Source: a virus. From it: DNA of 26,316 nucleotides. A program made the position numbers and the translations under genes. Below the pieces are notes generated by a model. The model had not been told where the DNA came from. It did no database searches and saw nothing but the letters and a program-made list of their open reading frames with translations. Below, in pieces: positions 22,708-26,316 of the stretch; the first letter of the stretch is position 1, and every line of letters starts with the position of its first letter. The stretch is from positions 1-26,316 of the IMG/VR virus record IMGVR_UViG_3300010155_000082, one strand, 5' to 3'.

Positions 22708-22947
22708 GTGGCCGAAAAACAGAAACGGAAAACGCGTCTTTATCAAAGATCTCAGATAATTAAAATTCTTAATCCAAACAATCCCCGAAGAGAAGGAAGT
22801 AACCGATTTCGAATTTTCCAGTCTATTAAAGACGGGATGACAGTAGATAAATTTTTGGCATTGGTTTCAGAATTTAATGGGGGAACTAAGGATTTACAAA
22901 TTTTGATAAAGTCAGGGCATATAGAGGTTATGCATACTCCCGTTTAA
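22708..22947 (+). CDS. 79-aa basic protein at the head of the hypermodification cassette
   Basis: Starts at GTG with GGAG seven bases upstream (22698-22701). The N-terminus is strongly basic (AEKQKRKTRLYQRSQIIKIL), followed by NPRREGS near 25-31, IKDGMTVDKFL near 41-51 and GGTKDLQILIKSGHIEV near 58-74. I recall small phage proteins with this N-P-x-R-x-G-S and GMTV layout, probably compact DNA-binding modules, but no function is assigned. It follows a 75-bp AT-rich gap after the helicase gene, which may hold a promoter (TTTACT and TATAAA elements are present but poorly spaced). It is 28 bp before the aGPT-PPlase gene, so the two are probably co-transcribed. Confidence 0.65.
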   Translation: MAEKQKRKTRLYQRSQIIKILNPNNPRREGSNRFRIFQSIKDGMTVDKFLALVSEFNGGTKDLQILIKSGHIEVMHTPV

Positions 22948-22975
22948 AAAACCGATGCTCTAGAAAGGCAGGGCT

Positions 22976-23854
22976 GTGTTAGAAAGAATGAAAGAAAAGG
23001 CCAGTAATTTAGACCCGGATTTACGGGAACCAGTCGCTCGGTTCTTTTATTGGATTAACGAGCGTACTCAAATTGCTATTAAAAAAGAACAAGGCGATAA
23101 ATGGCCTTGGACTGATGATCCTATTCTTCAAGAATATAAATTTACCAACGCTTTCCGTGAAGACGATAAAACCACTGTTTGGTTTCGAAATTGGATTCGA
23201 GACCCTCTTCAAGATTCTCCCGATGTATATATGGCCATTGTTATTTTTCGCTGGTTCAATTTAATTGAGACAGGCATTACTTTAAAAGAGAATGATCTTT
23301 TAGTTAATTGGGATGCTCAAAAAGCGTATGATTTAATTATTCCTCAGGAAAAATGGGTAACAGGGGCATATATGATAAAAAGCCCTACTGGTCTTAATAA
23401 GGTAAAGGGAATTTGCCAAACTATAGATGCAGTATGGAAAGACAGAAAACGCTTTTTAAAACAAAGTCAAGCGCCTACTTCACTACAGCGCATGTGTCTC
23501 ATGTTAGAAGGTTATCCTTTTCTTGGACCTTTCCTCGCATATGAAATTGTTACAGACCTGAGACACACAAGTATTGGTAAACGTGCCAAGGATATAAGAA
23601 CTTGGGCTAATGCAGGTCCAGGAGCAATGCGAGGCTTAAATAGAATTTTTGGACGAGAGCTAGAGTATACCTCAAAGAAACATGGGTGGAATGAAGAAAT
23701 GCAATGGCTATTAGGAATCGCTAGTCATTTTTATGAGGGGCCACAAAGAACTTTTGAAATGCGAGAAATAGAGCATAGTCTTTGTGAATTTGATAAATAT
23801 GAACGGGTAAGAACAGGGTTAGGAAGACCTCGTTCAAAGTATTATCCAAAGTGA
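22976..23854 (+). CDS. aGPT-PPlase family DNA base hypermodification enzyme
   Basis: A 292-aa, mostly helical protein strongly matching the alpha-glutamyl/putrescinyl-thymine pyrophosphorylase family: FFYWINER (23-30), WPWTDDPIL (43-51), FTNAFREDD (56-64), FLAYEIVTDLRHT (about 184-197), GPGAMRGLNR (about 213-222), and EIEHSLCEFDKYERVR with GRPRSKYYP (about 263-291). These enzymes act on DNA carrying an activated 5-hydroxymethyluracil: a kinase adds pyrophosphate to the hydroxymethyl group, and this family is implicated in replacing that group with an amine or amino acid. The GTG start has AAAGG upstream; ATG four codons on is an alternative. Neighbouring glycosyltransferase, radical SAM and thymidylate-synthase-family genes support a thymine hypermodification pathway. 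The family is near certain; its attached group is unknown. Confidence 0.9.
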   Translation: MLERMKEKASNLDPDLREPVARFFYWINERTQIAIKKEQGDKWPWTDDPILQEYKFTNAFREDDKTTVWFRNWIRDPLQDSPDVYMAIVIFRWFNLIETGITLKENDLLVNWDAQKAYDLIIPQEKWVTGAYMIKSPTGLNKVKGICQTIDAVWKDRKRFLKQSQAPTSLQRMCLMLEGYPFLGPFLAYEIVTDLRHTSIGKRAKDIRTWANAGPGAMRGLNRIFGRELEYTSKKHGWNEEMQWLLGIASHFYEGPQRTFEMREIEHSLCEFDKYERVRTGLGRPRSKYYPK

Positions 23855-23878
23855 CTTTTTATATAGAAAGGATAGAGG

Positions 23879-24928
23879 ATGAAACTATTATACCTTTCTC
23901 ATAGTCGATTTGGGGGATGGGTTACTTTTACGACCCATCTATATCATGGACTAGTGGGAATACCCCCTTTAGCAAGAGAGGTAGTTCAAGTAACTGACGA
24001 TCACACAGTTATTCGAGTTACTAATCGCACTGAAAAAACATATAGAGACATGGGCAATTTTGTACCTTATCGAAATATGAGCGAAGAAGATACCCTAGAA
24101 CTCATGGAAGAAGAAGAGCCTGTTCTTATTACAGCGTTAGATAAAAACCATAGAGAACTGGCTATGAAACTTTTAGAAAAGGGGGCACATATTGTAATAC
24201 ATGATCCAACTGAATTGCGTAATCCAGCTTTCCGAGATTTTATAAATCCAAGCCAAGTTATTGTTATTCGACGTTCTATGCTAGAGCATATGAAAGATGC
24301 TGCTTTTATTCCACATCCTTATATGGCAGTAGGAAGAACTGATGGATTAGATTATAAGAACTGGCTAAATCGGCCTACTAATGCAATCAGTGTATCGCGC
24401 TTAGATTTTGATAAAAACAGCCACTGGTTATTCGAGGCCAATAGGAAACTCCCTGATGATCGTCAAATATTAATTCGGGGAGCAGAAAATCGTATGTATA
24501 CAAAAAATAAGATTGTTCCTGTTTACCCTGAGTATAAACAAGACAGCAATCGACCTAAAGATGAAAGGGCTATTTTTAAATTAGACTTCAGGGGAGCTTT
24601 TAATCTTTGTAGAACAGCAAAATATATGACAGACTTTTCAGTGATAAAAGGCGATGGTGGGGGAACACAGTATACCTTTCTTGAAGCTATTGATGCAGGT
24701 ACAATTTGTTTGCTTCATAAAGATTGGATAAAGGAAAACGATTCTATGATAGATAAAGGCCCAAATCAAAATTGTATTTCTTTTAGAAACTGGGAAATGG
24801 TCGCTCATTTTTTAAACAATGAAATCACTGAACAAACAACAACCCTCCTTAGAACAAATGCACTAAAGCTATTAACAGAACATGATGCAGTCAGGGTCGC
24901 TGCTCAATATACTATGAGGTTAACATGA
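23879..24928 (+). CDS. GT-B-like glycosyltransferase, probably acting on modified DNA bases
   Basis: A 349-aa protein with GAAAGGATAGAGG before its ATG. The N-terminus MKLLYLSHSRFGGW and THLYHGL fit the first Rossmann lobe of GT-B enzymes; NAISVSRLDFDKN near 170-182 is the typical lobe linker, and DGGGTQYTFLEAIDAG (about 259-274) fits the sugar-nucleotide-binding motif of GT4-like enzymes (conserved Glu then Gly). No signal peptide or membrane helix is present, so it is cytoplasmic. It lies between the aGPT-PPlase gene and the radical SAM gene (4-nt overlap), so the likely acceptor is a hydroxymethyl- or amino-modified thymine in phage DNA. Acting on a protein or lipid is possible. Sugar donor unknown. 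Confidence 0.78.
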   Translation: MKLLYLSHSRFGGWVTFTTHLYHGLVGIPPLAREVVQVTDDHTVIRVTNRTEKTYRDMGNFVPYRNMSEEDTLELMEEEEPVLITALDKNHRELAMKLLEKGAHIVIHDPTELRNPAFRDFINPSQVIVIRRSMLEHMKDAAFIPHPYMAVGRTDGLDYKNWLNRPTNAISVSRLDFDKNSHWLFEANRKLPDDRQILIRGAENRMYTKNKIVPVYPEYKQDSNRPKDERAIFKLDFRGAFNLCRTAKYMTDFSVIKGDGGGTQYTFLEAIDAGTICLLHKDWIKENDSMIDKGPNQNCISFRNWEMVAHFLNNEITEQTTTLLRTNALKLLTEHDAVRVAAQYTMRLT

Positions 24929-25923
24929 AACAACAGCCGCCCTTTTGTATTCAACTCGAACTTACGGAAGGGTGTAATCTTGCTTGTTCCTTTTGTGGGC
25001 TTGCTGCTATACGAGACAATGGTGCAGATGGGCCTAATAAAATAAGAGGAAAGAATTCTCATCCTTATAAATTTTTAGAATATGCCTCGGCTCGAGTTAT
25101 AGCTAAAAAATTACAACGAGCAATGAAAAAGGATAAATGGAACCCACGTATAGAAATGGCTATGCATGGAGAACCAACAATGAATCCTCAGTTTTTAAAT
25201 ATTGTTCAGCTTTTTAGAAAAGAACTGCCTACTACACACTTACAAATGACCTCTAACGGAGCAGGGTTGTTAAGTGGTGACTTAACTAAAAATATAGATA
25301 CTTTGCTAAGTTCTGGATTAAATGTTTTATTGTTAGATAATTATGAATCTATAAAAATTTGTGATAAGGTCAGAACACGGTATATAGGCAACTACCCAAT
25401 TTATGAATATCCTTTAAACAAAAAAGCTAATCCACACAGACGTAGAAAACCGAGTGATCATGACATAGTTATTGTTCAAGATATTGATCACGCATCTCAA
25501 GGAACTCATTCTACTATAAATAATCATGCTGGTTCGGCTTTCCCTAAAAACAGTAGGGCAGTAGGCAAACGATGTGCAAAAGTATTTCGTGAACTATCTA
25601 TAAGGTGGGACGGTTCCGTTGCTATTTGTTGCAATGATTGGCCTGGATTTTACAGGTGTGGTAATATAATTCAAAAAGGAGAATTTGAATCACTGTGGCA
25701 AAATACTGCTTTTATTGCAGCACGAAAGAAACTTTATCATGGCTACCGAGATTTTGGGCCATGCAAAGGTTGTGACGCTACAAGTTATCGTCCTGGTTTA
25801 TTACCTGATGCACAAGGAAAGAAAGAATATGAAAAGCCTGATGACTCTACTCTCATCGCCATTAAAGACGCCCTCAAAAAAGGACCGTATACTTCTGCAG
25901 TCCCTCGTCCTTGGGAAAGATGA
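24925..25923 (+). CDS. Radical SAM enzyme with SPASM-like C-terminus, linked to base hypermodification
   Basis: A 332-aa protein. CNLACSFC places the CxxxCxxC [4Fe-4S] ligands at Cys17, Cys21 and Cys24. EMAMHGEPTMNP near 76-87 is the SAM-binding GGE-like region. The C-terminal part has RCAKVFRELSIRWDGSVAICC (split at the strand break), CGN and GPCKGCD, the spaced cysteines of a SPASM/twitch auxiliary cluster domain. Such enzymes make a 5'-deoxyadenosyl radical and modify peptides, RNA or small molecules. As I recall, radical SAM enzymes occur beside aGPT-PPlase genes in phages with modified thymines and include isomerases acting on thymine side chains. The start overlaps the glycosyltransferase stop by four bases. 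The exact reaction cannot be read from sequence. Confidence 0.88.
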   Translation: MKQQPPFCIQLELTEGCNLACSFCGLAAIRDNGADGPNKIRGKNSHPYKFLEYASARVIAKKLQRAMKKDKWNPRIEMAMHGEPTMNPQFLNIVQLFRKELPTTHLQMTSNGAGLLSGDLTKNIDTLLSSGLNVLLLDNYESIKICDKVRTRYIGNYPIYEYPLNKKANPHRRRKPSDHDIVIVQDIDHASQGTHSTINNHAGSAFPKNSRAVGKRCAKVFRELSIRWDGSVAICCNDWPGFYRCGNIIQKGEFESLWQNTAFIAARKKLYHGYRDFGPCKGCDATSYRPGLLPDAQGKKEYEKPDDSTLIAIKDALKKGPYTSAVPRPWER

Positions 25924-25924
25924 A

Positions 25925-26316
25925 GTGCCCACTATATATGTAAGAAATGTTGCCGAAGCCTTACACACAGGGCTTTCTCTGCTCAAAAGAGATGGTATTT
26001 GGCAGGAGTCAAGATCAGGTAATACAATTGAACACCCTAACCCAGTAATGACAATTTATAAAAGACCAGAGGAACGGGTGCTTTTTTACAAAATTCGAGA
26101 CGCTAATCCATTTTTCCATTTATTTGAAGCATTTTGGATGTTGGCTGGTAAAGATAATGTTGACTATGTTGCTCAGTTTAATAGTCGCATGAAAGAATTC
26201 TCTGATGATGGGTATATTCTTAATGGTGCATATGGGTATAGATGGCGTGAATATTTTTTAAGGGATCAATTAGATTATATCGTTGAACATTTAAAAGATT
26301 TTCCTAATTCCAGACG
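25925..26316 (+). CDS. Thymidylate synthase-family enzyme, probable dUMP hydroxymethylase (partial, 3' end outside window)
   Basis: A frame of 130 codons runs to the right edge from a GTG one base after the radical SAM stop, with GGAAAG upstream; the ATG at 25920 reads only seven codons and is not a start. The sequence NPFFHLFEAFWMLAGKDNVD (61-80), QFNSRMKEFSDDG and NGAYGYRWR (100-108) matches the N-terminal half of phage thymidylate synthase-family proteins, with the YGxxWR substrate-loop residues. The catalytic cysteine would be downstream. In this neighbourhood the likeliest reaction is dUMP to 5-hydroxymethyl-dUMP, feeding the aGPT-PPlase pathway; ordinary dTMP synthesis cannot be excluded from the visible half. 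Confidence 0.82.
   Translation, partial: MPTIYVRNVAEALHTGLSLLKRDGIWQESRSGNTIEHPNPVMTIYKRPEERVLFYKIRDANPFFHLFEAFWMLAGKDNVDYVAQFNSRMKEFSDDGYILNGAYGYRWREYFLRDQLDYIVEHLKDFPNSR

Follow-up and report, generated by a model that had tools for sequence, protein, structure and literature searches.

Pseudomonas phage M6 carries hmdU-derived bases in its DNA (PMC6449724). In M6 (5-aminoethyl-dU), and in phages Lucjan and AIIMS-Plu-RaNi, a thymidylate synthase (TS)-family hydroxymethylase gene adjoins an HMUDK_hel (helical-domain) gene near the DNA polymerase gene, and both are homologous to, and arranged like, a pair in the locus described here. M6 and its kin also carry a P-loop 5-hmdU kinase and an amino acid:DNA transferase (ADDT); in M6 the helical-domain protein gp55 adjoins the kinase gp54 (PF18748), ADDT is the product of a separate gene, gp51 (PF18724), and a radical SAM enzyme and a PLP enzyme are present too. 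The M6 product gp56 (L007:9288-9845), encoded between the helical-domain gene and the TS gene, is a match to Nmad5 (nucleotide modification associated domain 5), and we noted no counterpart of it in the window cassette. The TS of this phage group is in places annotated as a hydroxymethyltransferase or pyrimidine hydroxymethylase (PMC11946847). In pelagiphages a putative glucosyltransferase has been noted close to pairs of TS and aGPT-PPlase (PMC9599517); in those of the HTVC023P type the same TS and aG/PT-PPlase1 pairing lies near PolA, and the discussion there mentions neither a radical SAM enzyme nor a kinase or GT-B partner (PMC9599517). Sugar transfer to hydroxymethylated bases also has precedents: the T4 beta-glucosyltransferase can glucosylate 5hmU (PMC4111573), and the TET-associated glycosyltransferase (TAGT), a phage sugar-on-base transferase of GT-A fold, attaches a further sugar to hmC that is already glucosylated in T-even phages (PMC13216743). 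The parts of the cassette described below, and the idea of hmdU-derived bases, are already known. For the kinase-free combination of a glycosyltransferase (GT) with a BtrN-type radical SAM enzyme we found no description in the accessible literature, although an earlier report from metagenomes is possible.

The stretch of DNA analysed (the window) takes in all 26316 bases of a virus record, and the cassette consists of five plus-strand ORFs at its right end (Table 1). These are consecutive and tightly spaced, in the order and at the positions that an earlier note on this DNA had given; the gaps among genes 1 to 4 are 28, 24 and -4 bases. Gene 5 probably starts at the ATG at 25829, within the 3' end of gene 4, the radical SAM gene; it breaks off at 26316, where the record itself stops. 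On the 5' side of the cassette lie genes for an AEP primase, which matches pelagiphage and other podovirus-like primases, and a UvrD-type helicase, together with Pam3-like genes. The earlier note took the locus for an hmdU-based thymine modification cassette, and this is supported, with a TS of the M6 group, HMUDK_hel, a GT-B enzyme and a radical SAM enzyme in a conserved order. The reading that we prefer, with a probability of roughly 0.55, is that the cassette carries out kinase-free glycosylation of thymine followed by radical remodelling of the sugar.

Table 1. Genes of the cassette at the right end of the window.
Gene	Product	Position	Strand	Basis
1	79-aa protein, no assigned function	22708..22947	+	ORF; no Pfam/phrog family
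2	HMUDK_hel protein, 292 aa	22976..23854	+	PF18723, phrog_2396
3	GT-B glycosyltransferase, 349 aa, proposed 5-hmdU DNA acceptor	23879..24928	+	AlphaFold2 model, fold matches
4	BtrN-type radical SAM enzyme, 332 aa	24925..25923	+	Pfam, profile match to BtrN
5	TS-family enzyme, proposed hydroxymethyl-dUMP synthase, truncated, start inferred	25829..26316	+	Pfam, phrog, homology

Gene 5 matches Thymidylat_synt (E 6.5e-5) and phrog_5131 (E 1.2e-49), in agreement with its earlier assignment to the TS family. Over the part present it is 67% identical to its homologue in the related contig L002. The full-length L002 protein in turn shares 48% identity across 95% of its length with the M6 TS, M6 being known for hmdU-derived bases (PMC6449724), and it is through this homologue that gene 5 falls in the hydroxymethyl-dUMP synthase-like group of M6. 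The catalytic cysteine lies beyond the end of the window and is present in the relatives. We propose on these grounds that gene 5 encodes a hydroxymethyl-dUMP synthase. Membership of the TS family would by itself fit an ordinary dTMP synthase and normal thymine in the phage DNA, but the similarity of the L002 homologue to the M6 enzyme and the constant linkage of the TS gene to the helical domain make this most improbable. It is very probable that the phage DNA contains an hmdU-derived base.

Gene 2 belongs to the family PF18723 (5-hmdU DNA kinase, helical domain), matching positions 5-275 of 281 with E 5.4e-46 (157.6 bits, cut-off 25), and it also matches phrog_2396 (E 2.3e-59). It is 38% identical to M6 gp55 and 45-46% identical to the homologues from Lucjan and AIIMS-Plu-RaNi; a sequence search found no relative of solved structure. 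The earlier note had called this gene an aGPT-PPlase, and the label holds insofar as aGPT-PPlase clade 1 is the older name of the HMUDK_hel family; gene 2 is neither an amino-acid transferase nor a kinase. Indeed, since the helical-domain gene of M6 is distinct from its ADDT gene, the label does not imply amine transfer.

In the surroundings of 109 distinct helical-domain genes a TS gene is almost always present, and it is the third component that varies. In M6, Lucjan and AIIMS it is a kinase together with ADDT, in 59 distinct loci a methyltransferase, and in others a glycosyltransferase. The glycosyltransferases are of three classes, namely the GT-B family of the window, TAGT and GT98, the last being weakly GT-like and kept here as putative. 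No kinase, ADDT or glycosyltransferase was detected in the 59 methyltransferase-type loci, which possibly make O-methylated hmdU. Examples in which the helical-domain and TS genes accompany a SAM-dependent methyltransferase are L019:7168-8837, L022:7033-8921, L041:7129-8909 and L085:7126-8873. We propose, solely from this exchange of partners, that HMUDK_hel is a DNA- or base-presenting subunit. Long branches meet in the helical-domain tree, and the count of partner switches is accordingly a lower-confidence result. In the marine relatives a gene of about 200 codons precedes the helical-domain gene; it was considered as a hidden kinase and rejected, having no P-loop motif and matching no kinase family.

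It is possible to imagine that the locus follows the M6/ViI-like route, in which an undetected kinase would allow an amino acid to be placed on hmdU, the radical SAM enzyme would rearrange it and the glycosyltransferase would decorate the product. The helical-domain and TS proteins are, after all, homologous to those of M6, and M6 has a radical SAM enzyme as well. Profiles for the kinase P-loop domain (PF18748) and for ADDT (PF18724) were therefore run against 17 related records of 18-76 kb, whose completeness is uncertain, and against three M6-type controls; each was found in 0/17 of the former and 3/3 of the latter. Nor was there any match in L002-L006 to the M6 kinase used as a single query, or in the window (a fragment) and the 17 relatives to the diverged AIIMS kinase, though a very divergent kinase could have been overlooked by these searches. 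No PLP or FAD tailoring enzyme was matched in the cassette loci. The radical SAM enzyme of the window and its M6 counterpart, gp53, also show no sequence relationship (BLASTP E 1.1), and a gp53 profile matches M6 alone. The amine route is consequently improbable, and the amine-linked group suggested by the earlier note finds no support in the gene content: the helical-domain gene is not ADDT, and neither kinase nor ADDT occurs in the 17 related records. Where M6 and its kin have kinase and ADDT, and M6 its own radical SAM and PLP enzymes, the window cassette has a glycosyltransferase together with a radical SAM enzyme of the BtrN type.

Gene 3 gave no significant family match in Pfam or phrog searches and no PDB match by sequence, so its assignment comes from its predicted fold. 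An AlphaFold2 model built on an alignment of 46 sequences has a pLDDT of 92.2 and a pTM of 0.91 (a version built on 6 sequences was poor, with a pLDDT of 49), and it has a GT-B fold over its full length, which bears out the earlier description of the gene as GT-B-like. Foldseek and VIA matches include HepE, tetrahydrobiopterin glucosyltransferase and T4 DNA alpha-glucosyltransferase (AGT). The model aligns with the complex of T4 AGT and hydroxymethyluracil DNA over 323/349 residues (Z 23.9, 4.0 A), a near full-length match, but the T4 enzyme is tied in Z (about 24, about 300 residues) with HepE and other GT-B enzymes. Since the tied enzymes include GT4 members whose substrates are small molecules or lipids, the fold marks the protein as a glycosyltransferase but is no proof that it acts on DNA. 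There is no detectable sequence relation to T4 AGT, which acts on hmdC-containing DNA, and no DNA glucosyltransferase Pfam family was among the matches of the 46 homologues. Within these homologues R174 (46/46), K179 (46/46) and E269 (44/46) are conserved, which we take to be the donor-site residues of retaining GT4-like enzymes. When the phage collection was searched directly with gene 3, nothing matched.

The gene order of the cassette, for which the earlier note had suggested a search, is kept in five related IMG/VR contigs (L002-L006), with glycosyltransferase proteins 62-71% identical to that of the window, and so is not a chance arrangement. In these contigs the TS gene is followed on its 3' side by a small gene and by one for a DNA polymerase of family A. 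According to the earlier note, its reading would fall if related phages had no kinase and no conserved order; no kinase was indeed found in the 17 related records, but the order is strongly co-conserved.

Two pairs of relatives show what can be exchanged within the cassette. L128 and L130 are nearly collinear (radical SAM 88%, helical domain 72% and TS 72% identical; neighbours 58-90%, in order), and yet one has TAGT where the other has a GT-B gene of the window type. The TAGT of this pair is a weak Pfam match (26.1 bits, cut-off 27.5) from a family in which 28/33 sequences match PF20691. TAGT thus fills the same slot as the window enzyme in related cassettes, although the one is of GT-A fold (PMC13216743) and the other of GT-B fold; gene 3 has no Pfam match to PF20691, and the two profiles are unrelated (hhalign probability 0.2). 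In T-even phages TAGT glycosylates the base, and its exchange with the GT-B gene is for this reason the strongest indication that gene 3 does so too. In the second pair, L155 and L171, identity is 91% for the helical-domain protein and 87% for the GT, and the radical SAM gene is missing from L171; the core of the cassette would therefore be TS, helical domain and GT, with the radical SAM enzyme as an add-on. Both pairs are natural experiments on the contribution of each gene.

Many homologues of the window glycosyltransferase occur in contigs without a helical-domain or TS gene, so this family must have other uses too, and many of the fold matches are glycosyltransferases that do not act on DNA. 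Genes 3 and 4 might on this account serve surface-glycan or small-molecule chemistry and adjoin the TS and helical-domain genes by chance. However, the four-gene unit persists through rearranged orders and in several phage groups, TAGT replaces the glycosyltransferase at the same spot, and two close matches to the radical SAM enzyme in bacterial MAG contigs keep the same gene company, all of which makes such a coincidence unlikely. We propose that gene 3 glycosylates 5-hmdU in DNA, and glycosylation of hmdU is, taken on its own, likely. The balance is towards a sugar on hmdU and away from an amine link, because kinase and ADDT were not found in the 17 relatives, because the glycosyltransferase is exchanged for TAGT and because all the radical SAM genes found beside a helical-domain gene are also near a known or putative glycosyltransferase gene, as follows.

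A set of 59 distinct radical SAM homologues was collected. A helical-domain gene is near 37 of them, and in 37/37 of these loci there is a known or putative glycosyltransferase nearby; if the putative GT98 is left out, 32/37 have a clear one. The remaining 22 have no helical-domain gene nearby, and TAGT is near 15/22. The association between radical SAM and glycosyltransferase genes gives a Fisher p of 5e-26, but the rows are related (5 independent contrasts), so that row counts overstate the independence of the link; on the helical-domain tree 3 of the 5 independent contrasts agree and 0 oppose (p 0.25), a comparison that is underpowered. The radical SAM enzyme of the window, used directly as query, matched nothing in the phage collection, and a divergent query gave only weak matches, in Campylobacter phage and gut phages.

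Gene 4 matches SPASM (E 1.8e-8) and Radical_SAM (E 1.1e-6) in Pfam, as expected from its earlier description as a radical SAM/SPASM protein. The profile of the 59 homologues matches BtrN with E 4.5e-26, in an alignment that covers the core as well as the auxiliary-cluster domain; NifB comes next (4.9e-7). Residues C17, C21, C24, C217, C235, C280 and C283 are invariant in 59/59 and align to BtrN; they comprise a CX3CX2C motif and the cysteines of a single auxiliary cluster, the pattern of a BtrN-type twitch domain. Judged by these matches, gene 4 encodes a radical SAM enzyme of the BtrN type that has a single auxiliary iron-sulfur (twitch/SPASM) domain. The nearest solved structure is that of BtrN, the 2-deoxy-scyllo-inosamine dehydrogenase of butirosin biosynthesis, its core, auxiliary domain and cluster cysteines all aligning with gene 4; it oxidises a secondary alcohol of an aminocyclitol, a free small molecule, in a bacterium, whereas gene 4 is a phage enzyme whose oxidation of a carbinol is putative. 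By analogy, we propose that gene 4 oxidises or otherwise remodels a sugar.

In the favoured scheme the TS-family enzyme would make 5-hydroxymethyl-dUMP, which would replace dTMP in the DNA fully or partly. HMUDK_hel would then present 5-hmdU in DNA to its partner, here the glycosyltransferase and in M6 the P-loop kinase, and the GT-B enzyme would move a sugar from a nucleotide-sugar donor onto the 5-hydroxymethyl oxygen. The radical SAM enzyme would take a hydrogen from a carbinol carbon of the sugar, on the DNA or on the donor, leaving it oxidised or epimerised. The modified base may plausibly let the phage avoid restriction. We infer the substrate, the sugar, the order of the steps, the role of the helical domain and the protection from restriction. 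A radical step on the sugar, whether before or after transfer, has somewhat better than even odds, and about half of that likelihood falls to a step on DNA.

A radical step on a free nucleotide sugar or sugar phosphate, with glycosylation by an unusual sugar as the step on DNA, would resemble the action of BtrN on a free small molecule. It would also agree with the presence in four relatives, in the same operon, of genes that may supply the donor: a nucleotidyltransferase fused to a mannose-6-phosphate-isomerase-like cupin lies between genes 2 and 3 in three of them, and the fourth has just the cupin part at that place. The same radical SAM family nevertheless occurs with unrelated glycosyltransferases, mostly without a nucleotidyltransferase-cupin gene, which is not decisive either way, and we regard action before transfer as possible, at well under even odds. 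The window cassette itself probably uses a host sugar donor. Nucleotidyltransferase and cupin genes are also found away from the cassette in G008 (the contig of L174; 5247-6328, minus strand), where the nucleotidyltransferase match contains one TAG stop.

HMUDK_hel is annotated as part of a kinase, yet most of the phage neighbourhoods examined have no recognisable kinase. A wider and more tentative suggestion is that it is an exchangeable adaptor, serving a kinase, two GT folds and a methyltransferase, and that the radical SAM enzyme edits a DNA-borne sugar to give a keto- or epimerised glycosyl-hydroxymethyluracil. If HMUDK_hel were such a general adaptor, its name would mislead annotation and the pathway would be modular, a single hydroxymethylated base being passed on to one transferase or another. 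To our knowledge, phage DNA has no earlier example of radical chemistry on a sugar that it carries, and such editing, if true, would be a source of enzymes for DNA labelling.

Pairs of radical SAM and TAGT genes were also seen in L144:6389-8960, L147:5425-8993 and L156:7223-9315, with no helical-domain gene or TS detected there; one of these pairs is duplicated and another has a cupin gene. They possibly represent the same sugar editing on another base.

Gene 1 gave no significant family match in Pfam or phrog searches. Relatives 64-70% identical occur in L002, L004, L005 and L006, and in most relatives one sits ahead of the helical-domain gene. A second copy lies past the DNA polymerase gene in L002, L003 and L006, as a longer paralogue (L002 17801-18169). 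The 79-aa protein, having a paralogue outside the cassette, is therefore probably not cassette-specific, and it is not clearly part of the modification chemistry. A DUF932 gene also accompanies the replication and modification region (L155:5453-6481, L104:4212-5234 and L002:16693-17703), lying 5' of the helical-domain gene in the marine relatives and 3' of it in L002.
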